Source: Bordetella genomosp. 1
GTDB taxonomy: Bacteria > Pseudomonadota > Gammaproteobacteria > Burkholderiales > Burkholderiaceae_B
DNA length: 64,000 nt
Assembly (NCBI RefSeq): GCF_002261335.1
Contig: NZ_NEVL01000005.1
Location: forward strand, 124,001-188,000
Reading direction: 5' to 3'
Positions 29,343-41,875 of the stretch are shown here, one piece after another. The notes under the pieces were generated by a model that saw only the letters and a list, made by a program, of their open reading frames with translations, was not told where the DNA came from and searched no databases. Each line of letters starts with the position of its first letter. Position 1 is the stretch's first letter. Both the position numbers and the translations under genes were made by a program.

Positions 29343-30239
29343 TCAGGATGCCAGCAACGGCCGGATGCCGGCCAGGTTTTCGAGCGTGCGCCCCAGATGG
29401 TGGGCCAGCGCGCGCGAGGCCTCGCGCTGGCGTCCGGCCTCGAGCAGGTCGAGGATCTCGAGATGCTGGTGACAATGTTCGATGTAGCGCTCGCGGTTCT
29501 GCATGGAGCGGTACGACAGCAGGCGCCGCACGCGGTTCACGCGGCGGATCGTGTCGATGAAAAAGGGATTGTGGCTGCCTTCCACCAGCGCCTCGTGAAA
29601 GCGCACGCCGCGATCGTGCAGCTGGTCGGGCGAGTCGGTGCCGATGGCGCCGTCCAGCAGGCGCTGCTCCGCCGCGCGGCAGCGCGCCAGCACCTCGGGC
29701 GCGATGCGGTAGCCCGGCTCCAGCAGCGCCGCGGGCTCGAGCGCGAGCCGCAGCCGGTACGACTGCAGCAGGCTGTCGGGCGTGGTCATCATCTCGGAGA
29801 AGGCCCAGCCGTAGCCCGCCGTGCGTTCGGCCCAGCCCTCCTGCGCGATGCGGGTCAGCAGCGCGGTCACCTGCGCGGCGGTCAGGTCGTAGCGCATGCG
29901 CAACGCGCTTTCGGTGCAGGCGGAAGGCAGGTCGCCGCGCAGCAGGTCTTCGGCAAGCTGGAAATAGACCCGCGTGACCTCGTCGGGCTCGCCCAGGCCG
30001 AGGCGCCGCGTGGCGCGCGCGCTCAACGTGTCGAGCGGCTGCGCCAGAAAGTAGCCGCGATTCGGCACGTGGCGCAGCATGCCCTGCTCCTGCAGCCGCG
30101 CCAGCGCCTCGTTCACGGGCGAACGCGACACGCGCAGGCGGACCGCCAGCTGTTGCGCGGCGAGATGGGTGCCGACCGGCACGTCGTCCTGGCGCAGCAG
30201 GTCGACGATACGGTTCAGGACGGTGGACGGTCCGGACAT
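29343..30239 (-). CDS. GntR-family regulator (FCD) with an apparent second winged helix
   Basis: 298 residues. Residues 1-65 form a GntR winged helix (LAAQQLAVRLRVSRSPVNEALARLQEQGMLRHVPNRGYF). Residues about 90-150 look like another winged helix (LRMRYDLTAAQVTALLTRIAQEGWAERTAGYGWAFS) before a C-terminal FCD ligand domain (LHDRGVRFHEALVEGSHNPFF, HHLGRTL) with candidate metal-binding His/Asp residues. FCD proteins usually have one DNA-binding domain and about 230 residues, so the extra 70 residues are notable. Probably co-transcribed with the signal-less binding protein. Confidence 0.87.
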   Translation of the reverse strand: MSGPSTVLNRIVDLLRQDDVPVGTHLAAQQLAVRLRVSRSPVNEALARLQEQGMLRHVPNRGYFLAQPLDTLSARATRRLGLGEPDEVTRVYFQLAEDLLRGDLPSACTESALRMRYDLTAAQVTALLTRIAQEGWAERTAGYGWAFSEMMTTPDSLLQSYRLRLALEPAALLEPGYRIAPEVLARCRAAEQRLLDGAIGTDSPDQLHDRGVRFHEALVEGSHNPFFIDTIRRVNRVRRLLSYRSMQNRERYIEHCHQHLEILDLLEAGRQREASRALAHHLGRTLENLAGIRPLLAS

Positions 30240-30283: not shown

Positions 30284-30307
30284 TTGCGTGCACACGGGCG
30301 TGCGCAA
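30284..30307. promoter_or_regulatory. Imperfect palindrome near the gntR start
   Basis: TTGCG at one end mirrors CGCAA at the other, with 7 of 10 positions symmetric across each arm. It lies 45 bp before the gntR start at 30239 and is a candidate autoregulatory site. Confidence 0.35.
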
Positions 30308-30409
30308 GAATAGCCGGGATTGGTCGGGTGAGCGCGGCCGGCCGGGCCGGCGGCGCCGTCCGGAAGCAGCGCTGGCCGAGGCGCGCGGCGCGCGGGCAAG
30401 GGCGCATTT

Positions 30410-30435
30410 TTGCATTTACCCAAGGTGAAGTGCAA
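30410..30435. promoter_or_regulatory. Imperfect palindrome TTGCA...TGCAA
   Basis: TTGCATTTACC faces GGTGAAGTGCAA across CAA, near-symmetric with one offset base. It is between the gntR gene and the C45 promoter and unlike the TTGGCGCCAA sites, so a different regulator probably binds it. Confidence 0.35.
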
Positions 30436-30531
30436 TCGCATCGCGGCGGGCCTTCCCGCCCGGGCGCCGCTCGCGCGGCCCGGCTCGCGCGTCCAGCATC
30501 GGGAAAAACCCTCAGATTTTTGCGCCCTATA

Positions 30532-30541
30532 TTGGCGCCAA
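30532..30541. promoter_or_regulatory. TTGGCGCCAA operator A (C45-binding protein operon)
   Basis: Perfect 10-bp palindrome, 55 bp before the C45 start codon. It falls between a TTGCGC -35-like hexamer (30520-30525) and TAATCT/TAATAT -10-like hexamers (30544-30554), a position suited to repression. One of four identical copies in this region. Confidence 0.7.
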
Positions 30542-30596
30542 AATAATCTAATATTTTCCTCTTCCATCGTCCCTGCGCAGGCGCCTGCCTTCCACC

Positions 30597-31736
30597 ATGT
30601 CCCAGATCCCGCAGTTTCCCTTCGTGTCCGTGTCCGGCAATCCCGAGGAGCGCGGCCGCTCCTACGGCCAGCAGGCGCGCGAGCGCGTGCGCAAGAGCGC
30701 CGCGATGTACGGCCAGACCCTGGTCGAGCTGGGCTACGACGCCGCCGCGCGCAGCAGCCTGATTGCACATTTCGCACGCGAGATCGAGGCGTTCGCGCCG
30801 CACTACCTCGAGGAAATGCGCGGCATCGCCGCCGGTGCCGACGTGGCGTTCGAAGACGTGGTCATGATCAACGCGCGCACCGAGGTGATCGCCAAGGCGC
30901 GCGCCGAAAAGAAGAAGGCCGCCGAACTCGAGCCGGGCGACGGCTGCACGGGCGCGCTCATCCTGCCGACCCGCTCGGCCAACGGCAACCTGATCCATGG
31001 CCAGAACTGGGACTGGCGCGCCGAGTGCGCCGAGACCGCCATCGTGCTGCGCGTGCGCAACGACAACGGGCCCGACTTCCTCACCTTCGTGGAGGCGGGC
31101 GGGCTGGCGCGTAGCGGCCTGAACAGCGCCGGCGTGTCCATCACCGCCAACTACCTGGAATCCGACCGCGACTTCCGCCAGCTCGGCGTGCCGCTCTCGC
31201 TGATCCGCCGCAAGGTGCTGGAGCAGAGCCATTTCGCGCTGGCGCTCAAGGCGGTGGCCACCACGCCGAAGTCGTGCTCGAACAACATCATGATCGGCAT
31301 GGCGCAGGGCTTCGGCATCGACTTCGAGTGCACCACCGACGAGGCGTTCCCGATCTATCCCGGCAACGACGACCTGATCGTGCACGCCAATCACTGGGTC
31401 AGCGAAGTGGCGCTGGGCAAGCTGCGCGACACCGGCCGCGCCAGCACGCCCGAGAGCGCCTACCGCGACTGGCGCGTGCGCCGCCTGCTCAACGAGCAGG
31501 ACAAGCTCACGCGCGAAGACCTCAAGCGCGCGCTGTTCGACGACTTCGGCGCGCCCTATTCCGTCTGCCGCCCGCCCCGTCCGGGCAGCCACGACAATCT
31601 GTCGGCCACGGTCTCGATGGTCATCATGGAGCCGGCCGCCGGCCTGATGGAGGTGGCGCCGCTGCCCGCGCTCAACCGCACGTTCACGCGCTACAGCCTG
31701 ACCGACGAACCGCAGCTGCTCGCCAGCGCGGCCTGA
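30597..31736 (+). CDS. C45-family acyltransferase/peptidase (AAT-like Ntn hydrolase)
   Basis: 379 residues of the acyl-CoA:6-aminopenicillanate acyltransferase (peptidase C45) family. Autocleavage before Cys117 in EPGDGCTGALI would expose the nucleophile; HGQNWDW, GLARSGLNSAGVSITANYL and HANHW are family stretches. Members hydrolyse or transfer acyl groups on amide bonds, for example of beta-lactams or N-acyl amino acids. There is no signal peptide, so it acts in the cytoplasm, on compounds brought in by the binding protein encoded 67 bp downstream. The natural substrate is unknown. Confidence 0.87.
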   Translation: MSQIPQFPFVSVSGNPEERGRSYGQQARERVRKSAAMYGQTLVELGYDAAARSSLIAHFAREIEAFAPHYLEEMRGIAAGADVAFEDVVMINARTEVIAKARAEKKKAAELEPGDGCTGALILPTRSANGNLIHGQNWDWRAECAETAIVLRVRNDNGPDFLTFVEAGGLARSGLNSAGVSITANYLESDRDFRQLGVPLSLIRRKVLEQSHFALALKAVATTPKSCSNNIMIGMAQGFGIDFECTTDEAFPIYPGNDDLIVHANHWVSEVALGKLRDTGRASTPESAYRDWRVRRLLNEQDKLTREDLKRALFDDFGAPYSVCRPPRPGSHDNLSATVSMVIMEPAAGLMEVAPLPALNRTFTRYSLTDEPQLLASAA

Positions 31737-31803
31737 GGCCGGCACCAGGGTCCGGGGCCGCGCCCCGGCCCGCCTACGACGATATACAAGGGGAACACCG
31801 CCG

Positions 31804-33360
31804 ATGAAACTGAACCGAACCGCCGCCCTGGTGGCGCTCGCGCTCGCGGGCGCCGCCGCGCAGGCCCAGACCGCGCCGCCGCTGCGCATCTCGTTCACCG
31901 CCGACATCCGCTCGACCGAGCCGGGCGTGAACCGCGACAGCAACAGCGACGCGCTGGTGATGCACATCGTGGAAGGCCTGGTGGCCTATGGCGAGGACGC
32001 CGAGGTGCGGCCGATGCTGGCCCGCTCCGTCGAGATCAGCCCCGACGGCAAGACCTACACCTTCACGCTGCGCGAGGGCGTGACCTTCAGCAATGGCGCG
32101 CCGCTCACCTCGGCCGACGTCAAATGGACCTGGGACCACTACATGGCGCCCAAGTCCGGCTGGCGCTGCCTGAGCGAGTTCGACGGCCGCGGCCCGGCCA
32201 AGGTCACCGGCGTGGACACGCCCGACGCCCGCACCGTGGTGTTCCACCTGGAAGCCCCCTCGGGCCTGTTTCTCGCCTCGCTGGCGCGCATCGACTGCGG
32301 CGGCACCGGCATCGTGCACAAGGACTCGGTCAGGCCGGACGGCAGCTGGGACCGGCCCATCGGCACCGGCCCGTTCGTGCTCGACGAGTGGAAGCGCGGC
32401 GAGTACGTCAGCCTCAAGCGCAACCCCAAGTACGCCAATCTCGACGGCAAGCGCGACGGCTATACCGGCTCCAAGCGGCCCCTGGTGGACGCGGTGCGCT
32501 TCGTGATCGTGCCCGACGACGCCACCGCCAAGGCGGCGCTGCAGCGCGGCGACATCGACATCATCGAGGATGTCTCCAACAACGACGTGGCGCCGTTGCA
32601 ATCGCTCAAGGGCGTGACGGTCGCGCATGCGCCGGTGATGAGCGTGACCGGCCTGCTGCTGCAGACGCGCGACCCCTTGCTGGCCGATCCCAGGATGCGC
32701 CAGGCGCTGGCGCACGCGATCGATCATCCGCAGCTCACCGCCGCGGTGAGCGAGGGGCTGGCCAAGCCCAACAACTCGCTGGTGCCGCTGGTCTCGCCCT
32801 ACTACGGCGCGGTCGAGAAAAAGGGCTGGGACTACGATCCCGCACTGGCGCAGCGGCTGCTGAAGGAGGCCGGCTACAAGGGCCAGGAACTGGTCATCAT
32901 CACGACCAAGCGCTACCCGCAGTCGTACAACTCGGCCATCATCATCCAGGCCATGCTGCAGGCGATCGGCGTCAATGCCAGGCTCGAGGTCATGGAATGG
33001 GCCACCCAGCTCGACCGCTACAACGCCGGCAACTACCAGATGATGACCTTCCCGTACTCGGCCCGCCTCGACGCGGCGCTGAGCTACGAGATGGTGACCG
33101 GCGACAAGCAGAAGCAGCCGCGCAAGGTCTGGGACAACCCCAAGGCCATCGCGCTGGTCGAGCAGGCCTCGCGCAGCGCCGACCACGCGGAGCGCCAGCA
33201 GCTGTTCGACCAGCTGCACACGCTGATGCTGGCCGACGTGCCGCTGGTGCCGCTCTACAACGGCCTGGACATCGGCGCCTACCGCAACGACATCAAGGGC
33301 TACACGCCGTGGGCCGTGAAGAAGCCGCGCGCGTGGGAGGTGGAACGCGCCGCGAAGTAG
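31804..33360 (+). CDS. ABC substrate-binding protein, family 5 (paralogue 1)
   Basis: 518-residue periplasmic peptide-type binding protein. Signal peptide MKLNRTAALVALALAGAAAQAQ. Typical stretches: ADIRSTEPGVNRDSNSDALVMHIVEGLVAYG, YTFTLREGVTFSNGAPLTSADVKW, IGTGPFVLDEWKRGEYV and NNSLVPLVSPYYGAVEKKGWDYDP. It is clearly paralogous to the protein at 33489 (ADIRSTxPGVNRD and IGTGPFxxxEWKRGE shared). Second gene of the C45 operon, followed by a strong terminator. Likely delivers substrate to the DppBC-like permease encoded at 37.6-39.4 kb. Confidence 0.92.
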   Translation: MKLNRTAALVALALAGAAAQAQTAPPLRISFTADIRSTEPGVNRDSNSDALVMHIVEGLVAYGEDAEVRPMLARSVEISPDGKTYTFTLREGVTFSNGAPLTSADVKWTWDHYMAPKSGWRCLSEFDGRGPAKVTGVDTPDARTVVFHLEAPSGLFLASLARIDCGGTGIVHKDSVRPDGSWDRPIGTGPFVLDEWKRGEYVSLKRNPKYANLDGKRDGYTGSKRPLVDAVRFVIVPDDATAKAALQRGDIDIIEDVSNNDVAPLQSLKGVTVAHAPVMSVTGLLLQTRDPLLADPRMRQALAHAIDHPQLTAAVSEGLAKPNNSLVPLVSPYYGAVEKKGWDYDPALAQRLLKEAGYKGQELVIITTKRYPQSYNSAIIIQAMLQAIGVNARLEVMEWATQLDRYNAGNYQMMTFPYSARLDAALSYEMVTGDKQKQPRKVWDNPKAIALVEQASRSADHAERQQLFDQLHTLMLADVPLVPLYNGLDIGAYRNDIKGYTPWAVKKPRAWEVERAAK

Positions 33361-33386
33361 CGGCCCGCCCCGCAGCGCCATACTCG

Positions 33387-33410
33387 ACCCGGGCCCGCCC
33401 CGGGTTTTTT
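33387..33410 (+). terminator. Rho-independent terminator of the C45 operon
   Basis: ACCCGGG (33387-33393) pairs with CCCGGGT (33399-33405) across a CCCGC loop and is followed by a run of T to 33410. It is 26 bp past the binding-protein stop. Confidence 0.85.
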
Positions 33411-33439
33411 CATGGGCGCATGCCGTTGCGCGCGCAATG

Positions 33440-33465
33440 AAAACGGCCGCACCGAAGTGCGGCCG
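33440..33465 (-). terminator. Rho-independent terminator with UUCG loop
   Basis: Perfect 9-bp stem CGGCCGCAC/GTGCGGCCG around CGAA (UUCG on the minus strand), followed on the minus strand by TTTT. It ends the second binding-protein gene and stands back to back with the preceding plus-strand terminator. Confidence 0.85.
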
Positions 33466-33488
33466 GTCGCGCCAGCCTGGCGGCAGGC

Positions 33489-35042
33489 TCATTGCCCGAC
33501 GGTGGTCTCCCACGCACGCGGCTTGCCTTCCCAGACGGAGAAGCCCTGCACGCGCGAGGTGTTGGCCCAGGCGTCGGCGCCGTTGTACAGCACGATCAGC
33601 GGCGTCTGCGCCAGCATCAGCGCGTGCATCTTGTCGAAGATGGCCTGGCGCCTGGCCGGATCGGACTCGGCAAAACTGGCGTCGAGCAGCTTGAGCGCCT
33701 CGGGGTCTTCCCAGACCTTGCGCGGCTGCTTGTCCTTGTCGCCGGTGAACTGCTCATAGCTGAGCGCCGGGTCCAGGCGCGACGAGTACGAGAACGAGCT
33801 GATCTGGTACTTGCCGGAGTTGTAGCGGTCGAGCTGGGTGGCCCATTCGATCACCTCGATGCGCGCATTGATGCCCACCGACTGCATCATCGCCTGCGCC
33901 ATCACCGCCACCTGGTAGCTCGGCACGTGGGTGCGCTTGTTGGCATAGATGACGATGGGCTCGCCCTTGTAGCCGGCTTCCTGCAACAGCTTCTGCGCGC
34001 GCGCGGGGTCGTAGTCGTAGCCCTTCTTCTGCGCCGCGTCGAAATAGGCCGAGCTGGTGTGGATGCCGGAATTGTTGAACTGGCCCAGGCCCTCGGAGGC
34101 CGCCAGCACGATCTGCGGCATGTCGAGCGAGGCGGCGATGGCCTGGCGCAGCTTCACGTTCTTCAACAGCGGGTCGCGGGTCTGGAGCAGCAGCACGTGC
34201 TTGGTGGCGTCGTGCGGCACGAACACGTTCACCTTGCCGTTGGCGCGCAGGTCGGCCACGTCGGTGTTGGTGACCTGGCTGGCGTCGATCGCGCCGGACA
34301 TCAGGCCCGCCTTGATGGTGGAGGGATCGGGCACGACCAGGAACTTCACCTCGTCGACCAACGGGCGCTTGCCGCCCAGGAAGCCGTCGGGCTTGCCGCT
34401 GCCGGGCGACTGGTAGTCCTTGAAGGCGGACAGCAGCACGAACTCGCCGCGCTTCCATTCCTTGAACTGGAACGGGCCGGTGCCGATGGGCTTGTCCCAG
34501 GTGCCGTCCGGCTTGAGCGAATCCTTGTGGATGATCGCCGTCATGCCGCAATCGGTGCGGGCCAGGGAGTCGAGGAACACGGCGGACTTGTGGTCGATCT
34601 TCATCACCACCGTGTGCGCGTCGGGCGCGCTCACCTCCGTGACCTTCAGGCCGTTGCGGCCGTCGAAATCGCTGCGGCAGCGCCAGTCGGTGCCGGCGTC
34701 CATGTAGCGCTGCCAGTTCCACAGCACGTCGGCCGAGGTGAGCACCGCGCCGTTGTGGAACTTCACGCCCTCGCGCAGCGCGAAGGTGTAGGTCAGGCCA
34801 TCTTCCGAGACCTCGACCGACCGGGCCAGGAGCGGGCCCACGGTGCCGTTGTCGCGGTAGCCCACCAGCCCTTCCACCATGTTCAGCACCACGCCGTCGG
34901 TGGTGTTGTCGCGGTTCACGCCCGGGTTGGTCGAGCGGATGTCGGCCGGCTGCGCGATGGTGAGCGTGGCGGCGTGCGCGCCCCAGGCGGCCGACAGGGC
35001 CAGGACCAGCGCGAGCGGCCGGGCGTAGGTGGTGAAGGACAT
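33489..35042 (-). CDS. ABC substrate-binding protein, family 5 (paralogue 2)
   Basis: 517-residue periplasmic peptide-type binding protein, signal peptide MSFTTYARPLALVLALSAAWGAHA. Shares long stretches with the protein at 31804: ADIRSTNPGVNRDNTTDG, YTFALREGVKFHNGAVLTSADVLW, IGTGPFQFKEWKRGEF, GYDYDPARAQKLLQEAGYKG. The start at 35042 has a GGAG site 8 bases upstream; longer readings lack one. Monocistronic, with its own TTGGCGCCAA site and terminator. Two binding proteins for one permease suggest two related ligands or induction states. Confidence 0.92.
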   Translation of the reverse strand: MSFTTYARPLALVLALSAAWGAHAATLTIAQPADIRSTNPGVNRDNTTDGVVLNMVEGLVGYRDNGTVGPLLARSVEVSEDGLTYTFALREGVKFHNGAVLTSADVLWNWQRYMDAGTDWRCRSDFDGRNGLKVTEVSAPDAHTVVMKIDHKSAVFLDSLARTDCGMTAIIHKDSLKPDGTWDKPIGTGPFQFKEWKRGEFVLLSAFKDYQSPGSGKPDGFLGGKRPLVDEVKFLVVPDPSTIKAGLMSGAIDASQVTNTDVADLRANGKVNVFVPHDATKHVLLLQTRDPLLKNVKLRQAIAASLDMPQIVLAASEGLGQFNNSGIHTSSAYFDAAQKKGYDYDPARAQKLLQEAGYKGEPIVIYANKRTHVPSYQVAVMAQAMMQSVGINARIEVIEWATQLDRYNSGKYQISSFSYSSRLDPALSYEQFTGDKDKQPRKVWEDPEALKLLDASFAESDPARRQAIFDKMHALMLAQTPLIVLYNGADAWANTSRVQGFSVWEGKPRAWETTVGQ

Positions 35043-35081
35043 GAAGAGACTCCAGGCTGCCGCGCCAGATTTTCCAATAAA

Positions 35082-35091
35082 TTGGCGCCAA
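35082..35091. promoter_or_regulatory. TTGGCGCCAA operator B (second binding protein)
   Basis: Perfect 10-bp palindrome 40 bp before the start at 35042. A CATAAT -10-like hexamer (minus strand, 35103-35108) lies just upstream, which would put the site at the transcription start. Confidence 0.7.
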
Positions 35092-35215
35092 AGAAAGCGC
35101 CTATTATGGGCGGCCCACCGGGGCGTGCCATCCGGGGTATCCCTGAAAGCGGCGCGGCCCGCACGAGGCGGGCCGCAATCGATGCGCATGCGGGCGGCGC
35201 GGGGCCGCGCGCGGA

Positions 35216-35854
35216 TCAGGACACGTCCTGGTTGATGTGGGCCGTGATGACCTTCTGCAGCCGCTTCACGTCGTTGGCCTCGATGGCCTCGACCATCTCG
35301 AAGTGCTCGCGCGCCGACTTCTCGATACGGGCGTGGGTGACCCATTCGCGCGCCACGGCCGACGGGCCGCGGCTACGCATCTCGAGGATCAGCGCGGCCA
35401 GTTCGCGGTTGCGGCACATGTCGTAGACCGCGGCGTGAAAGGCCAGGTTGACCTCGTATTGCTCGAGCAGGGTGCCGGTCTTGAGCAGGCCGTTGAAGCG
35501 CTCGGCCAGCTGCTTGACGAGCCGCAGCTTGGAGGCGGTCACGTTGTTCATCAGATCGGCCGCCGCGCCGGTTTCGAGCAGCAGGCGGATCTCGCGCAGC
35601 TCTTCATGACGCTGCGGGTCCATCGCGAACACGTGATAGCCGCGATTCGGGATGTGGGTGATGAGGCGCTTGCCCGCGAGCTGGTCGAGCGCGCGCCGCA
35701 CGTCCAGGCGCTTGGCGCCATAGCGGTCCTGCAGATCGATCTGCTTGAGCCAGGCGCCCGGGCCGTACATCCCGGCCTGGATGTCCTGGGCGATGCGGTC
35801 GGCCAGATTGGACTGGACGGTTGAGGCCGTTTTCGGCGCGGCCGATTTCGGCAT
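35216..35854 (-). CDS. GntR-family transcriptional regulator (FCD domain)
   Basis: 212 residues. Winged helix at about 10-75 (NLADRIAQDIQAGMYGPGAWLKQIDLQDRYGAKRLDVRRALDQLAGKRLITHIPNRGYHVF) and FCD domain from about 85 (LREIRLLLETGAAADLM, NLAFHAAVYDMCRN, HFEMVEAIEANDVKRLQ). It sits inside the peptide-uptake cluster, between the second binding protein and the ABC operon. Its own promoter carries different repeats (GCATGCA) rather than TTGGCGCCAA, so it may sense the imported compound at other sites or be autoregulated independently. Confidence 0.88.
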   Translation of the reverse strand: MPKSAAPKTASTVQSNLADRIAQDIQAGMYGPGAWLKQIDLQDRYGAKRLDVRRALDQLAGKRLITHIPNRGYHVFAMDPQRHEELREIRLLLETGAAADLMNNVTASKLRLVKQLAERFNGLLKTGTLLEQYEVNLAFHAAVYDMCRNRELAALILEMRSRGPSAVAREWVTHARIEKSAREHFEMVEAIEANDVKRLQKVITAHINQDVS

Positions 35855-35875
35855 GACGTGCTCCCGCGATGTTAG

Positions 35876-35906
35876 GCATGCAATTATCGAGCATGCATTT
35901 TATGCA
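35876..35906. promoter_or_regulatory. GCATGCA direct repeats upstream of gntR
   Basis: GCATGCA occurs at 35876-35882 and again at 35891-35897 (15-bp period, about one and a half helical turns), with a third ATGCA at 35902-35906. Located 22-52 bp before the gntR start, suited to autoregulation. Confidence 0.45.
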
Positions 35907-35934
35907 AAACCCGCCGCCGTCGGATCGGCGGCGG
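35906..35934 (-). terminator. Probable terminator of the ABC importer operon
   Basis: CCGCCGCCG (35911-35919) pairs with CGGCGGCGG (35926-35934) over a TCGGAT loop; on the minus strand it is followed by GTTTTG. It lies 47 bp after the ATPase stop. The T tract is short, so efficiency is uncertain. Confidence 0.6.
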
Positions 35935-35981
35935 CGGGCGGCAATGACGGACGCCAGGGGTGGCGGCGCCGTCACGCGCCG

Positions 35982-37643
35982 TCAGGCCGTGGCCCGCTGG
36001 CCGGCCTGCGCTTCGTCTTCGAGCCGCCAGCGCAGCCGCACGCCGCCGCTCTGGGTGGACTCGAGCGCCGGAATCGCGCGCAGCAGCGAGCGTGTGTAGG
36101 GATCGCGCGGGCGGTCGAAGATCTCGTCGCGCGTGCCCTGCTCGATGATGGCGCCGTCCTTCATCACCACCACCCGGTCGGCCACCTGCTCGACCACGCC
36201 CAGGTCATGACTGATGAACAGGCACGAGAATCCGTGCTTTTCCTGCAGGTCCGCGAACAGGTCCAGCACCTGTGCCCGCACCGTCACGTCGAGCGCCGAC
36301 ACGGGTTCGTCGGCGATCACGAAGGCCGGGCGGCGCACGATGGCGCGCGCGATCGCCACGCGCTGGCGCTGGCCGCCCGACATCTCGTGCGGGTAGCGGC
36401 CGGCGTATTCGGGGCCCAGGCCGACCTCGACCAGCACTTCGTCGACGCGCCGGCGCTTCTCGCCCGCGGTCAGCGAGCCCACCAGCCGCAGCCCTTCGCC
36501 CACGAGCTGGCCGATGGTCATGCGCGGATCGAGTGAGGAATAGGGATCCTGGAACACCATCTGGCAATTGAGCCGATACTCGAGCCAGGCAGGCGAGTCG
36601 CGGCCGACCGGCTGGCCGCGGAACAGAATCTCGCCCGCCGCCGGTTTGAGCAGGCCGGCGATGGCGCGGCCCAGCGTGGTCTTGCCCGACCCCGAGCCGC
36701 CCACCACCGCCACCACCTCGCGCGGCCGCACGGTCAGGTCGATGCCGCCCAGCGCGCGCTTGGCGGCGGTGCGCGAGAACAGCCGCTGGTGGCCGGCGTA
36801 GTCGACCACCAGCTGGCGCACCTCGATGATGGGCGCGTCGGCTGCCGGCGCGCGCGCGGGCAGCCGGCGCGGCATGGCGTCGAGCAGCTTGCGGGTATAG
36901 GGCTCCTGCGGCCGCGCCAGGATGTCGTCGGTGCGGCCCGTCTCGACCACCCTGCCCTGCTGCATCACCACCACGCGCTCGGTGTAGCGCGCCACCATGG
37001 GCAGGTCGTGGCTGATCATGAGCACCGCGGTGTTGTGCTCGCGGGTGAGCGCCACCATCAGCTCGAGCACGTCGCGCTGCACCACCGCGTCGAGCGCGGT
37101 GGTCGGCTCGTCGGCGATCAGGAGCGCGGGCTCGAGCAGCATCACCGAGGCCAGCATCATGCGCTGGCGCATGCCGCCGGAAAACTCGTGCGGCCAGGCC
37201 GACAGCGCGGCCAGCGGATCGCGGATGCCGACGCGGCCGAGCATGTCGAGGATGCGGGCGCGGCGCGCCGCCGCGTCCAGGTCGCGCCGGTGCAGCCTGA
37301 GGCCCTCGTCGAGCTGGCGGCCGATCTGCATCGAGGGATTGAGCGAGGTCATGGGCTCCTGGAACACCATGCCGATGCGCGCGCCGCGCAGCGCCCGCAA
37401 GGCGCGCGGCGAGGCCTGCGTCACGTCGGTGCCCTCGAACAGGATCGCCCCGCCGGCACACACCAGCGGCGGCGGCGTGAGCCCCATGATGGCGCGGGCG
37501 GCCTGCGTCTTGCCGCTGCCCGATTCGCCCACGATGCCCACCATCTCGCCCGGCGCCACCTCGAACGACACGTCGCTGACGATCTGCCGGCCGCCCTCGC
37601 CCACCGTGAGCGTCAGACCGGAAACGGAAACCAGTGCGGCCAT
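35982..37643 (-). CDS. Peptide ABC importer ATPase, two fused ATP-binding domains
   Basis: 553-residue protein with DppD- and DppF-like domains in one chain, as in GsiA/YejF. Domain 1 (about 1-260): Walker A GESGSGKTQ, signature FSGGMRQRM, then LLIADEPTTALD. Domain 2 (about 285-550): GGSGSGKTT, signature MSGGQRQRV, FVIADEPVSALD. Each half ends with the oligopeptide C-terminal extension. Energises the DppBC-like permease encoded directly upstream; start and upstream stop overlap by one base (TGATG), so translation is coupled. Confidence 0.93.
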   Translation of the reverse strand: MAALVSVSGLTLTVGEGGRQIVSDVSFEVAPGEMVGIVGESGSGKTQAARAIMGLTPPPLVCAGGAILFEGTDVTQASPRALRALRGARIGMVFQEPMTSLNPSMQIGRQLDEGLRLHRRDLDAAARRARILDMLGRVGIRDPLAALSAWPHEFSGGMRQRMMLASVMLLEPALLIADEPTTALDAVVQRDVLELMVALTREHNTAVLMISHDLPMVARYTERVVVMQQGRVVETGRTDDILARPQEPYTRKLLDAMPRRLPARAPAADAPIIEVRQLVVDYAGHQRLFSRTAAKRALGGIDLTVRPREVVAVVGGSGSGKTTLGRAIAGLLKPAAGEILFRGQPVGRDSPAWLEYRLNCQMVFQDPYSSLDPRMTIGQLVGEGLRLVGSLTAGEKRRRVDEVLVEVGLGPEYAGRYPHEMSGGQRQRVAIARAIVRRPAFVIADEPVSALDVTVRAQVLDLFADLQEKHGFSCLFISHDLGVVEQVADRVVVMKDGAIIEQGTRDEIFDRPRDPYTRSLLRAIPALESTQSGGVRLRWRLEDEAQAGQRATA

Positions 37644-38461
37644 CAGGCACCCCTCATGCGCGGATCGAGGCGGTCGCGCACGGCGTCGCCCAGCAGGTTG
37701 ATGCCCAGCAACGCCAGCGCGATGCACAGACCGGGAAAGATCGAGAGATAGCTGGCCTGCGCCATGAACGGACGCGCGGCGGCCAGCATGTTGCCCCAGG
37801 TGGGCGCGGGCGGCGGCACGCCGAGGCCGAGGAACGACAGCGCGCTCTCGGCCAGGATGACCCAGCCGAACATCGACGTGGCCAGCACGGTGATGGGCGC
37901 CACGCAGTTCGGCAGCACGTGGCGGAACATGGTGTAGAGCTCGGAGTTGCCCAGCACGCGCGAGGACTCGATGAACTCCTTTTCGCGCAGGGACAGCACG
38001 GTGCCGCGCACGATGCGGGTCACCGAAGGCGTGTAGGCCAGCCCGAGCGCCAGGATGATGCCGTACTTGTTGGCGCCCACGACGGCCAGCAGGCCGAGCG
38101 CCAGCAGCAGGCCCGGAAACGCCAGCAGGGCGTTGTTGAAGGCCATGATGATGCGGTCGGTCCAGCCCCGCACGAAACCCGTCAGGGTGCCGATCAGGGT
38201 GCCGGCCACGATGGCGAAGCCCACCGTGAGCAGGCTGATGAGCACGCTCGACGAGGCGCCCGCCAGCAGGCGCGACAGCTCGTCGCGGCCGAACTCGTCG
38301 GTGCCGAGCAGGAACGTGGCGCTGGGCGGCTTCAGGCGCGAGACGAAATTGATCTTGAGCGGATCGTGGGGCGTCCAGACCGCGCCCATGATGGCGGCGA
38401 TCACCACGATGGCCACGATGGTGCCGCCGATCAGGGCATTGGCTGCGGTGCGTTTTTTCAT
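37643..38461 (-). CDS. Peptide ABC importer permease, DppC type
   Basis: 272-residue inner-membrane permease. The start MKKRTAANALIGG fits family length; helices at about 10-30, 80-105, 120-145, 195-215 and 240-262. Family features are HDPLKINFVSRLKPPSATFLLGTDEFGRDELSRLL at the N-terminal loop and the EAA coupling loop REKEFIESSRVLGNSELYTMFRHVLPN. Overlaps the upstream DppB-type gene by 4 bp (ATGA). Confidence 0.93.
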   Translation of the reverse strand: MKKRTAANALIGGTIVAIVVIAAIMGAVWTPHDPLKINFVSRLKPPSATFLLGTDEFGRDELSRLLAGASSSVLISLLTVGFAIVAGTLIGTLTGFVRGWTDRIIMAFNNALLAFPGLLLALGLLAVVGANKYGIILALGLAYTPSVTRIVRGTVLSLREKEFIESSRVLGNSELYTMFRHVLPNCVAPITVLATSMFGWVILAESALSFLGLGVPPPAPTWGNMLAAARPFMAQASYLSIFPGLCIALALLGINLLGDAVRDRLDPRMRGA

Positions 38462-39402
38462 TCTGCCGTCACCCGGGGGTCGAAGAGCGGATAGCACAGG
38501 TCGATGATCAGGTTGACCACCACGTAGATCACGGCCACGAACAGCAGGCAGCCCTGGATCACCGGGTAGTCGCGCGCGAAGATCGAATCGACCAGCAGGC
38601 GGCCGAGGCCGGGGATCGTGAACACGGTCTCGACCACGGCGATGCCGCCCAGCAGGTTGCCCAGCACCAGGCCGATCAGGGTCCAGGTGGGGCCGAAGGC
38701 GTTGCGGAAGGCGTGGTGGATCAGCACCGACGACTCCGACAGACCCTTGGCGCGGGCATGCGTGATGTAGTCCAGCCGCAGCACCTCGAGCGTGCTGGCG
38801 CGCGCCATGCGCATCAGCACGCCGATCTCGTGCAGGAACAGCGTGAGCACCGGCATCACCAGGTACAGCAGGCCCGCCTTCCAGTCGGTGCTGAGCGAGA
38901 CGTAGCCCACCACCGGCAGCCAGTCGAGCTTCAGGCCGAAGAACAGCAACAGCAGCAGGCCGAGCCAGAAGGTGGGAATCGAGACCAGCAGCGTGGCGCC
39001 CGCGACCAGGATCAGGTCGGGCGCGCGGTTCTGCTTCCAGGCCGCGATCATGCCGGCCGGCACGGCCACCAGCGTGGCGAACAGCACCGCGGCCAGCACG
39101 ACGCGCGCGCTCACCACGAAGCGGTCCCACACCAGGCCCAGCACTGGCTGGCCGGTGTTGATCGAGGTGCCGAGATCGCCGTGCAGCGCGTAGTTGCCCC
39201 AGAGGCCGAACTGGGTCACCCAGTCCTTGTCGAGGCCGAGTTTGGCACGCAGGTCGGCCAGCGCCGCCGGCGTGGCCATGTCGCCCAGCATCAGCTGGGC
39301 GGCGTCGCCGGGAATGAGCCGGATCAGCACGAACACCGCCACGGCCACGATCAGCAGCGTGGGGATGGCCATGACGATACGGGCGAGCGCGAAACGTAGC
39401 AT
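38458..39402 (-). CDS. Peptide ABC importer permease, DppB type
   Basis: 314-residue inner-membrane permease with six helices. N-terminal RFALARIVMAIPTLLIVAVAVFVLIRLIPGDAA is characteristic of DppB; the EAA loop is ASTLEVLRLDYITHARAKGLSESSVLIHHAFRNAF; the C-terminus ends in CYPLFDPRV. Forms the translocation channel with the DppC-type protein. It follows the alpha/beta hydrolase gene by 52 bp in the same operon. Confidence 0.93.
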   Translation of the reverse strand: MLRFALARIVMAIPTLLIVAVAVFVLIRLIPGDAAQLMLGDMATPAALADLRAKLGLDKDWVTQFGLWGNYALHGDLGTSINTGQPVLGLVWDRFVVSARVVLAAVLFATLVAVPAGMIAAWKQNRAPDLILVAGATLLVSIPTFWLGLLLLLFFGLKLDWLPVVGYVSLSTDWKAGLLYLVMPVLTLFLHEIGVLMRMARASTLEVLRLDYITHARAKGLSESSVLIHHAFRNAFGPTWTLIGLVLGNLLGGIAVVETVFTIPGLGRLLVDSIFARDYPVIQGCLLFVAVIYVVVNLIIDLCYPLFDPRVTAE

Positions 39403-39454
39403 GGCACTCTCCTATGACTGCGCCGCGGCGCGGCGGAAACGGGCGGGCACCGGG

Positions 39455-40324
39455 TCAGCCCTGGGGCGCGCGCATCTGGCGCAGCACGCCGGCGAGGAAG
39501 TCCTGTACCTCGGCGCAACACTTCAGGCCGTCGTGCGGCACGTTGTCGACCATATCGAGCGTGACGTTGACGCCCGCGGCCATGAACGAACGGCGCAGCG
39601 ATTCCAGGCGCTCGGGGCGGTTGCGGCCGGCATCGTTGGCGCCCGGCATGAAGAACTTGCCGCCCTCGCGGTGGGTGATTTCCCAGGTCTCGAGGTCGGC
39701 CTTGCCCACCACCATGTGCACCGGCAGGGCGCGCAGCGCGTCCAGGTCGATCGCCTTGCCGAAGCGCGCCTGCACGTCGCGCGTGCCGACCCACCAGTCC
39801 TGCTCGGGGTCGAGCAGCGTGACCGAGCCCGGCGCGCCGATCGAGCTGGCCCACAGGCGGTCCGGGTGCAGCAGCGTGAAGCGGTTCACGTATTGCCCGC
39901 CGCCCGAGTAGCCGAACAGCGCGAAGCGCTGGAAGTTGCGGCCGAACTTCTCGCCCACCTCGCCCACCATGTCGAGCAGCAGCTGGTCGTAGCGGATCTC
40001 GCCTTCGCGCAGCTGCTTGAAGCCGTCGCGGTTGCCGTCGCCCAGCACGCCCACGGGAAACAGCGGGCACAGCACGATGCAGTCGTTCCAGCGCGCGAAC
40101 TCGGCGAACGCGTCGCGGTATTCCACGAAGGCGCGGCCGGTGCCGTGCACGATCACGACCAGTTCCATCGGATGCTGCGCGGCGTCCAGGTGCGGCGGCA
40201 CATACATGCAATAGGAGAAACGCGGGTCGCTGCGCGACGCGAAGATGGTGCTGTGGCCCAGATCGTAGATGGCGCGCGCGCGAGCTTGATCGAGCGGAGA
40301 GACGGTTGCGGCTTCGGCCTGCAT
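39455..40324 (-). CDS. Alpha/beta hydrolase (esterase/PHB-depolymerase-like)
   Basis: 289-residue serine hydrolase. Oxyanion-region VVIVHGTGR, nucleophile elbow FGYSGGGQ, and candidate catalytic His in NVPHDG (with an Asp or Glu in the KADLETWE region) make a complete triad plausible. No signal peptide, so cytoplasmic. First gene of the permease-ATPase operon and directly controlled by the palindrome at 40437. Alongside the C45 enzyme it gives the module a second bond-cleaving activity (ester or amide) on imported material. Precise substrate unknown. Confidence 0.82.
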   Translation of the reverse strand: MQAEAATVSPLDQARARAIYDLGHSTIFASRSDPRFSYCMYVPPHLDAAQHPMELVVIVHGTGRAFVEYRDAFAEFARWNDCIVLCPLFPVGVLGDGNRDGFKQLREGEIRYDQLLLDMVGEVGEKFGRNFQRFALFGYSGGGQYVNRFTLLHPDRLWASSIGAPGSVTLLDPEQDWWVGTRDVQARFGKAIDLDALRALPVHMVVGKADLETWEITHREGGKFFMPGANDAGRNRPERLESLRRSFMAAGVNVTLDMVDNVPHDGLKCCAEVQDFLAGVLRQMRAPQG

Positions 40325-40389
40325 GGAAATCCTCGTGATGCGTGAAAAAGGGAAACGGCGGCGCCTGGCGCGGCGGCGGTTCCCGGGTT

Positions 40390-40431
40390 GCGGCGTAATG
40401 GTTGCGACGTAATGGTTGCGACGTAATGGTT
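40390..40431. repeat. Three 14-bp tandem repeats in a promoter leader
   Basis: Units GCGGCGTAATGGTT, GCGACGTAATGGTT and GCGACGTAATGGTT run head to tail at 40390, 40404 and 40418, ending beside the 40437 operator. They lie in the expected 5' leader of the hydrolase-importer mRNA, 66 bp or more upstream of its start. Confidence 0.95.
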
Positions 40432-40436
40432 GCGTA

Positions 40437-40450
40437 AATTGGCGCCAATT
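40437..40450. promoter_or_regulatory. TTGGCGCCAA operator C (hydrolase-importer operon)
   Basis: The palindrome extends to 14 perfect bases, AATTGGCGCCAATT. A TAGAAT -10-like hexamer on the minus strand (40448-40453) overlaps its edge, so bound protein would block RNA polymerase. Confidence 0.75.
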
Positions 40451-40500
40451 CTAGAGAGAGGTGCGCCCCGGCGGCAACGGGGTAATCCCGTAGGGCCCGC

Positions 40501-40926
40501 TCAGTCGGCCTTGTAGCTCTTGAGGTGGATGCTGGTTTCGGTGGCCGCGATCCCCTTGATCAGCCGTACCCGCTCGAGCACTTCCGACATCTGGCCGATG
40601 CTGCCCACGCGCAGCTCGGCGAGCAGGTCCCAGCGCCCATTGGTGTCGTGCAGCCCCGCCACCGCCGGTTCGCCGAGCAGCAGGTTCACCACGCGGCGGG
40701 TCTCGTGGCCGTCGATCGCGATGCTCATCCAGGCCACGATCTCCTCGGGCACGGCATCGGGCCGCAGGCGCGCGCTGTAGCCCACGATCACGCCGCTGGT
40801 CTCGAGCCGGGCGAGCCTGTTGTTGATGGTGCCGCGCGACACGCCGAGCCGGCGCGCCAGGGTGGCGACGGGCGCGCGCGCATCGGCGCGCAGCATGCCC
40901 AGCAGTTGTTGGTCCAGCGTGTCCAT
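40501..40926 (-). CDS. AsnC/Lrp-family regulator, likely controller of the TTGGCGCCAA regulon
   Basis: 141 residues. Helix-turn-helix at 1-55 (LDQQLLGMLRADARAPVATLARRLGVSRGTINNRLARLETSGVIVGYSARL) and RAM ligand domain (VVNLLLGEPAVAGLHDTNGRWDLLAELRV, VRLIKGIAATETSIHLKSY). ATG at 40926 gives normal family length. It is next to the importer operon, and its own upstream region has a 14-bp version of the palindrome, consistent with autoregulation. The GntR at 35216 is the alternative controller. Confidence 0.9.
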   Translation of the reverse strand: MDTLDQQLLGMLRADARAPVATLARRLGVSRGTINNRLARLETSGVIVGYSARLRPDAVPEEIVAWMSIAIDGHETRRVVNLLLGEPAVAGLHDTNGRWDLLAELRVGSIGQMSEVLERVRLIKGIAATETSIHLKSYKAD

Positions 40927-41008
40927 GAGTGCGGGGGAAAAAGAGGAAGGCGGCGAACGACGCCAGGGCGGCGCGGCACGGCCCGCCGGCATGCGTCGCG
41001 GCCGCGAT

Positions 41009-41022
41009 AATTGGCGCCAATT
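41009..41022. promoter_or_regulatory. TTGGCGCCAA operator D (lrp promoter)
   Basis: A second 14-bp perfect copy, AATTGGCGCCAATT, 83 bp before the lrp start. On the plus strand the same bases could act as a -35 (TTGGCG, then TATGCC 17 bases on) towards the GST gene, so the site may serve both directions. Confidence 0.72.
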
Positions 41023-41196
41023 TTGGAGAGAATTATGCCAGCCCGGCGGGCCGCGCGGGCAGTGGCGTATTCCCTGAGCGCCACGCAGCCCCCAGCGCGC
41101 CCCCGCCCCGCAACGCGCTGTTATGCCCCGCGACAGGGCAGACTGTGCCTGCTCCCGCACCTCGCGACGGCGCTAGACTGCGAGCGCGCGGACGTC

Positions 41197-41217
41197 GCGC
41201 GATGCGCGATGCGCGAT
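41197..41217. repeat. 7-bp tandem repeat across a start region
   Basis: GCGCGAT three times in a row, ending two bases into the ATG at 41216. Each unit contains an ATG but in shifting frames; only the ATGs at 41216 and 41225 are in frame with the GST. Confidence 0.9.
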
Positions 41218-41224
41218 GCCCCTC

Positions 41225-41875
41225 ATGATCCAGATCCTCGGCAAGGCCGCCTCCATCAACGTGCGCAAGGTCCTGTGGGCCTGCGACGAACTCGGGCTGC
41301 GCTACACGCGCGAAGATTGGGGCGCCGGCTTCCGGCCGACCTCCGACCCGGCGTTTCTCGCGCTCAATCCCAACGCCATGGTCCCGGTGCTGCGCGACGG
41401 CGACTTCGTGCTGTGGGAGTCCAACACCATCCTGCGCTATCTCGCCAACCGCCACGGCGCGCACGCCCCGGCGCTCTACCCCGCCGAGCCGCAGGCCCGT
41501 GCGCACGTGGATCAATGGATGGACTGGCAGGCGAGCGACCTGAACACGGCGTGGCGGCCGGCCTTCATGGGACTGGTGCGGCGGCATGCCGACTTTCTCG
41601 ACGCGGCCGGCATCGCGGCTTCGCTCGTCGCCTGGGCGCGCTACATGCAGGTGCTGGAGGGCAGGCTCGAGCGCACCGCCGCCTATGTGGGCGGCGCGGC
41701 CTTCACGCTGGCCGACATTCCCATCGGCCTGTCGGTGACACGTTGGTATCGCACCCTGGAGGTGGCCGGCGCCGCCGGCGCGGCGGCCCCCGCGCTGCCG
41801 GCGGTGCGTGACTACTTCACGCGCCTGCGCGCACGCCCGGGATTCCGGGCCCACGCCGACAATGGCGAACCCTGA
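41225..41875 (+). CDS. Glutathione S-transferase family protein
   Basis: 216 residues from ATG 41225 (219 from 41216; neither has a clear ribosome site). N-terminal thioredoxin-like domain [31 protein letters not shown] with the Ser-Ile-Asn motif seen in GstB-like enzymes, [27 protein letters not shown] for glutathione binding, and a helical C-terminal domain ([16 protein letters not shown]). Cytosolic conjugation or reduction is expected; substrate unknown. Ends against the converging motB-like gene with no gap. Confidence 0.88.

Follow-up and report, generated by a model that had tools for sequence, protein, structure and literature searches.

We analysed a 64,000-nucleotide stretch of the Bordetella genomosp. 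1 genome (contig NZ_NEVL01000005.1, positions 124,001 to 188,000; hereafter the window) in which four copies of the 10-bp palindrome TTGGCGCCAA accompany an uptake and cleavage module. On the plus strand, a C45-family autoproteolytic acyltransferase/hydrolase (30597–31736), which scores above the cut-off for NCBIfam NF040521 and has no Pfam match, forms an operon with a family-5 peptide/nickel-type binding protein as its second gene (31804–33360; Pfam SBP_bac_5). The other genes of the module lie on the minus strand. These include a second family-5 binding protein (33489–35042), assigned to its family by reading of the translation, and a regulator with GntR and FCD Pfam domains (P0002; 35216–35854). 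An importer operon begins with a hydrolase (39455–40324) that has no Pfam match and whose sequence matches poly(aspartic acid) hydrolase-1 (6ve6, E-value 7.8e-10). It continues with a DppB/NikB-type permease (38458–39402; NCBIfam Opp2B/NikB matches below cut-off), a DppC-type permease (37643–38461) typed by its position, and a fused two-domain ABC ATPase (35982–37652; NCBIfam DppD/DppF/NikD/NikE-type matches). A terminator-like hairpin is present on the minus strand at 35934–35911, between the ABC ATPase and GntR genes. Upstream of the importer operon is a gene for an AsnC/Lrp-type regulator (P0001; 40501–40926, minus strand; Pfam HTH_AsnC-type and AsnC_trans_reg). Another GntR/FCD gene (29343–30239) adjoins the cluster, where it lies beside a family-3 binding protein in the segment 28586–30239.

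An initial annotation of this stretch had reported TTGGCGCCAA at four positions and at no other place in the window. On re-scan, exact copies start at 30532, 35082, 40439 and 41011 and there is no fifth; the only further copies have one mismatch (n = 3; 19275, 35712 and 38070). The annotation was also right that the last two copies extend to 14 bases, as the perfect palindrome AATTGGCGCCAATT occupies 40437–40450 and 41009–41022. Against AATTGGCGCCAATT, the copies at 30532 and 35082 have three and two mismatches, respectively. In the whole genome (5,595,001 bases in 7 contigs) there are six exact copies of TTGGCGCCAA, four of which are those of the cluster. The fifth (L014) lies beside ribosomal-protein genes, inside the elongation factor G gene by our own reading, and the sixth (L009) is intergenic, between what we read as an MFS-type and a MacA-like gene. 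The total of six is ordinary because the base composition of the window predicts about five, but the clustering is not: by our own binomial estimate the probability that at least four of six random copies fall within one 10.5-kb stretch is about 1e-7. Many scattered genomic copies, which the annotation had named as an outcome that would speak against a local regulon, are therefore not what the genome contains.

The four copies lie upstream of different transcription units, namely the C45 acylase-binding protein operon (copy 1, 30532–30541), the second family-5 binding protein (copy 2, 35082–35091), the hydrolase-importer operon (copy 3, 40437–40450) and the AsnC/Lrp gene (copy 4, 41009–41022), and their centres are 44 to 119 bases ahead of the first matched codon of the downstream gene. 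The annotation had placed each of them in a likely core promoter. A scan of 30300–41300 yielded two sigma-70-like promoter matches, at the 40439 and 35082 sites, and none at the 30532 and 41011 sites; shuffles of the same stretch average 0.8 matches, which makes the number of promoters alone weak evidence. Copy 3 shares bases with TAGAAT, the -10-like hexamer of the hydrolase-importer operon, and copy 2 starts 11 bases past the -10-like hexamer CATAAT, whose end is at 35103.

We compared 29 clusters holding the GntR gene, the window's own and 28 from other genomes, and scored a site as an exact TTGGCGCCAA within 300 bases upstream of a gene. In the assignment of cluster genes, tblastn matches with less than 48% identity or less than 30% coverage were dropped, and a copy entered the site alignment only if at least 30 bases flanked it on both sides. 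The hydrolase is preceded by the site in 28 of 29 clusters, and the second binding protein in 26 of 27. For the C45 gene the count is 13 of 21; leaving out five loci that end at the gene, with 0–5 bases of promoter, makes it 13 of 16. Seven of the eight scored AsnC genes have it as well, and the eighth (L079) has the operator 10-mer with one mismatch; L082, one of the eight, lies apart from its cluster, and L078 is not among them. No site was found before the C45-operon binding protein (0/21), before DppB, which adjoins DppC in 29 of 29 clusters, or before the ATPase (0/29 each). As a control we scored all 1024 ten-base palindromes, and the runner-up stood upstream of the hydrolase in 4 of 29 clusters versus 28 for TTGGCGCCAA. 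Conservation at orthologous promoters, the absence of which the annotation would have taken as a refutation, is thus observed in the related clusters, and the comparative evidence for this regulon is unusually clean.

TTGGCGCCAA is absent from five related hydrolase-importer clusters that lack this GntR; ahead of their hydrolase genes, the best-matching 14 bases differ at 4 to 6 positions. One of the five carries a 33% identical GntR instead. Such related hydrolase and importer clusters (L200–L204) are present in several relatives, where either a different regulator or no regulator was found. A wider GntR search in the order (300 genomes) recovered only the window's own protein at an E-value of 1e-45, with the best 10 candidates scored in many genomes; as the GntR searches in general scored the best 10 or best 25 candidates in many genomes, homologues that are distant or ranked low may have escaped detection. 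A segment of about 290 bp is repeated in inverted orientation in the cluster region (L080 10524–10808, L175 6990–7282). In the genome of L082 and L175 the AsnC gene and the cluster are not contiguous, perhaps via rearrangement at such repeats.

Whether an Lrp or a GntR protein reads the palindrome had been left undecided in the annotation. From position, our first guess was the AsnC/Lrp protein (40501), which would then repress its own gene together with the cluster. Its gene sits between two sites, with a perfect one in its own promoter, and autoregulation is common in the AsnC/Lrp family. We rejected this candidate on comparative evidence. At 74 of 80 AsnC homologue loci (stretch searched up to 20 kb) there is no exact TTGGCGCCAA, and clusters without an adjacent AsnC nevertheless retain the sites; in two examples, G001 and G005, the best AsnC of the whole genome is only 40% and 39% identical, respectively, and is located elsewhere. 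In 14 genomes (12 Achromobacter and 2 Candidimonas) an AsnC homologue of 65–74% identity lies away from the GntR cluster; its locus has no TTGGCGCCAA, and the GntR cluster of the same genomes carries the site before the hydrolase. Three of these 14 (L095/L067, L155/L068 and L128/L069) were paired by identical coordinates and scores, and the AsnC loci L094 and L097 fall outside the set checked for GntR. A loss case bears on the same question. Achromobacter pulmonis LMG 26696 encodes an AsnC that is identical at 141 of 141 residues to the AsnC of A. dolens and A. ruhlandii, and at an E-value of 1e-25 neither a GntR orthologue nor the hydrolase was found in this genome, three of three control genomes being positive for the latter. 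Its AsnC operator reads GGCTGGGGCCAATT, with the left half changed in a promoter alignment that is gap-free around the operator. A remnant of the hydrolase promoter (L078 10540–10680) runs into the operator and breaks inside it, a deletion scar of the cluster. An unchanged AsnC therefore coexists with a broken site. In addition, distant AsnC homologues bear a different 15-bp motif near TTGCCATTTTGGCAA, described below. Taken together, these observations make AsnC a very unlikely reader.

The GntR gene, by comparison, is present in 29 of 29 clusters, many of which were found by it, and the operator appears to change along with the protein. The GntR of G069 is the most diverged (58% identical), and all three G069 operators read TTGGCACCAA. 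At six columns this protein alone departs from an otherwise uniform alignment; two of these columns fall in the recognition helix, where the other 28 GntR proteins have no private change. One of the two, domain position 39 in our own alignment, is Leu50 here and Pro in G069. A GntR survey reports that, in FadR-subfamily sites, the central bases correlate with this position (PMC4494728). Another candidate reader is a regulator encoded outside the cluster: the sites are tied to the cluster's GntR by genetic linkage only, and a few off-cluster copies are shared among Achromobacter genomes. Such a regulator is unlikely given the joint loss of sites and GntR in A. pulmonis and the parallel change of sites and recognition helix in G069. 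As a further candidate, the GntR/FCD protein encoded at 29343–30239 in the window is of the right family and is encoded close to copy 1, but at an E-value of 1e-15 it was detected beside the cluster in the window alone; we rejected it since it was not found beside other clusters, and consider it an extremely improbable reader. It is just as hard to believe that the repeats are a chance or structural element rather than an operator. A GC-rich palindrome in six copies is indeed close to the expectation from composition, yet the confinement of four of the six to 10.5 kb and the position kept at 28/29, 26/27 and 13/16 promoters already contradict this explanation. Collectively, the comparisons between genomes strongly favour the GntR/FCD protein as the most likely reader and count against AsnC. 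We conclude that TTGGCGCCAA, often extended to AATTGGCGCCAATT, is very probably the operator of the GntR/FCD regulator at 35216–35854, and we propose this protein as the putative repressor of the module. With respect to the annotation, which proposed one repressor controlling a local regulon in both directions, a single regulator is strongly supported, and repression is proposed from the position of the sites.

Several points weigh against assigning the operator to this GntR. No TTGGCGCCAA precedes the GntR gene in any of the 29 clusters, and because this gene lacks a site and has the terminator-like hairpin before it, we do not claim autoregulation. The link is to the cluster, and therefore a regulator coded elsewhere is conceivable at the low probability given above, GntR being the only regulator always present in the cluster. 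Most clusters were found via GntR or AsnC homologues, and two, G001 and G005, were found via the palindrome alone; without these two the counts are 26 of 27 for the hydrolase and 24 of 25 for the second binding protein. Moreover, 17 of the 29 clusters are from Achromobacter and are not independent. Two Candidimonas clusters (L068, L069) lack a site before the C45 operon. A hydrolase search of 121 genomes found no cluster having the sites without GntR, although the survey of clusters may have overlooked one. The loss in A. pulmonis is seen in a single genome whose completeness is not stated, and the covariation likewise in a single lineage (G069). The rule that the accessible part of the survey gives for position 39 concerns Asn and Thr, with none for Leu or Pro (PMC4494728). 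Copies of TTGGCGCCAA outside the cluster exist in Achromobacter, 26 of 35 being unshared. Finally, the operator is off the FadR-subfamily box by one base per half. This box is given in the same part of the survey as TKGT/ACMA, GT and AC being separated by 2 or 3 nt (PMC4494728); TTGG-CG-CCAA fits it in the 2-nt spacing and in G3, and G/C stands where the consensus has T/A.

The domain structure of the GntR protein agrees with its family assignment. The N-terminal winged helix-turn-helix domain PF00392 scores 39.6 bits (cut-off 27) and the C-terminal FCD domain PF07729 scores 74.2 bits (cut-off 24.3). We built an AlphaFold2 model from six sequences, with a mean predicted local distance difference test score (pLDDT) of 77.5, a predicted template modelling score (pTM) of 0.59 and residues 164–171 under a pLDDT of 50. 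The model has a winged helix-turn-helix followed by six C-terminal helices from residue 80 to 207. Members of the VanR group of FCD regulators are described in the accessible text of PMC7797058 as having six C-terminal helices instead of seven, and the modelled protein has the number expected for this group. The same text mentions a metal site of three His plus Asp/Asn in some VanR-group members (PMC7797058). Asn136, His140, His184 and His206 are invariant in the alignment of six GntR sequences and may form such a site, an assignment made by eye. The best PDB matches of the model in Foldseek are GntR-family regulators, McbR first, with Atu1419 alone and in complex with its palindrome among the others. 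The TM-scores are about 0.5 to 0.6 with a large root-mean-square deviation, probably from an inter-domain hinge, and the model therefore supports the family and nothing finer.

The AsnC gene appears to be a GntR target in some lineages alone. Where AsnC is cluster-adjacent, the operator occurs twice in four Achromobacter genomes (116–118 bp apart) and once in a fifth; this spacing corresponds to about 11 helical turns and would allow looping. In a tree based on few columns, the cluster-borne AsnC genes do not form one clade. Distant AsnC homologues (e.g. L101 and L106, outside Alcaligenaceae) have the 15-bp upstream motif near TTGCCATTTTGGCAA with at most four mismatches in 53 of 59 cases, and a motif of this kind is found in 3% of shuffles, in 1 of 9 cases in the cluster lineage and in 3 of the 14 Achromobacter AsnC genes that do not adjoin the cluster. 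These counts are descriptive because the consensus was read off the same promoters. The motif is perhaps the AsnC protein's own operator. An operator swap does not follow from these numbers, because the Achromobacter AsnC genes away from the cluster mostly lack the TTGCCATTTTGGCAA-like motif too. We tentatively raise the possibility of a two-tier circuit in which GntR captured AsnC, so that AsnC would be switched on only upon GntR sensing the substrate. Such a circuit would have evolved recently and would already have been lost in A. pulmonis.

The off-cluster copies of TTGGCGCCAA comprise 35 in five Achromobacter genomes (7 in G156, 11 in G157, 6 in G160, 4 in G161 and 7 of an expected 9 in G159). 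Every one of them, intergenic copies included, has an open frame of at least 177 codons, and the open-frame measure therefore cannot separate coding from non-coding copies. There are three shared groups, one of which overlaps the last codons of a gene and another of which is found in two genomes (L222, L237). The third group is an exact TTGGCGCCAA that precedes an alpha-glucosidase-like gene by about 200 bp in all eight Achromobacter genomes with the GntR cluster that were examined (L212 701–710, L209, L229, L233, L246, L248, L249 and L250, the last by position only). In A. pulmonis, which is without GntR, this site (L247) reads TTGGCGCCAG. The alpha-glucosidase-like gene is a possible distant target, though its site may be unrelated because the conserved block reaches beyond the palindrome.

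Based on these comparisons, we propose that a GntR dimer reads the TTGG/CCAA half-sites and would occupy the -10 to start region of each unit. Repression is expected from this position, and the FCD repressor Atu1419 acts in this way at 10-bp palindromes (PMC7797058). Bound GntR would block RNA polymerase and thereby keep three units off: hydrolase-DppB-DppC-ABC ATPase, the second binding protein, and the C45 acylase-binding protein operon. In this lineage the AsnC gene would likewise be kept off. The operator would then be freed by a small molecule that the module imports or liberates, presumably the importer's substrate or a product of it. The analysis assigns a specific predicted operator to a previously uncharacterised GntR/FCD regulator and outlines a compact putative regulon of two hydrolases, one importer and two binding proteins that is common to Achromobacter, Candidimonas, a Bordetella and relatives. 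With the operator known, a reporter strain could serve to find the substrate of the module. The one-base operator change that is matched by recognition-helix changes in G069 would also provide a test case for the recognition of central operator bases by FCD regulators.

GntR/FCD regulators that act on local catabolic operons through short palindromes are already well known. A search of the open literature found no paper on this regulon or naming a GntR regulator with TTGGCGCCAA. None of the 13 papers of the open literature in which TTGGCGCCAA occurs has a bacterial-regulation title, and in the only bacterial paper among them that contains it twice it is a primer, which fits the annotation's description of the sites as previously unlinked. 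FadR-subfamily regulators of the PdhR/LldR type have the consensus AATTGGT-N3-ACCAATT. The outer half-site AATTGG/CCAATT is shared with the operator described here, but the GT-AC spacing is 3 nt in those sites and 2 nt in ours. VanR of Caulobacter, also of the GntR family, has the operator ATTGGATCCAAT. Our operator shares with it the half-sites ATTGG/CCAAT and a 2-base centre; the centre is AT there and CG here, VanR controls vanillate genes, and the likeness comes from the operator letters alone. ATTGGATCCAAT is present in construct sequences in the accessible part of PMC6538847, and the VanR operator letters were not found in the accessible parts of PMC4920640 and PMC10229424. McbR/YncC of E. 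coli (4p9f), the top Foldseek match (E-value 5.5e-9), shares the GntR and FCD fold, but it is 22% identical to our GntR and has a different role. For the FCD repressor Atu1419 of Agrobacterium fabrum, which belongs to the VanR group, the accessible text of PMC7797058 describes a 10-bp palindromic operator, ATGTATACAT, that is repeated unchanged three times in adjoining promoters of a catabolic cluster; two of the copies sit at -10 boxes and the third between the -10 and -35. The protein is tetrameric, recognises G3 of the operator through Arg45 and has hydroxycinnamate breakdown as its regulon (PMC7797058). Our GntR is only 18–19% identical to Atu1419 over the Foldseek alignments, and the letters of the two operators differ. 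Like Atu1419, however, it is a GntR/FCD regulator with a 10-bp perfect palindrome with a 2-base centre at neighbouring promoters, and the counterparts of Arg45 and G3 are present here as Arg49, in our own alignment, and the G at position 3.

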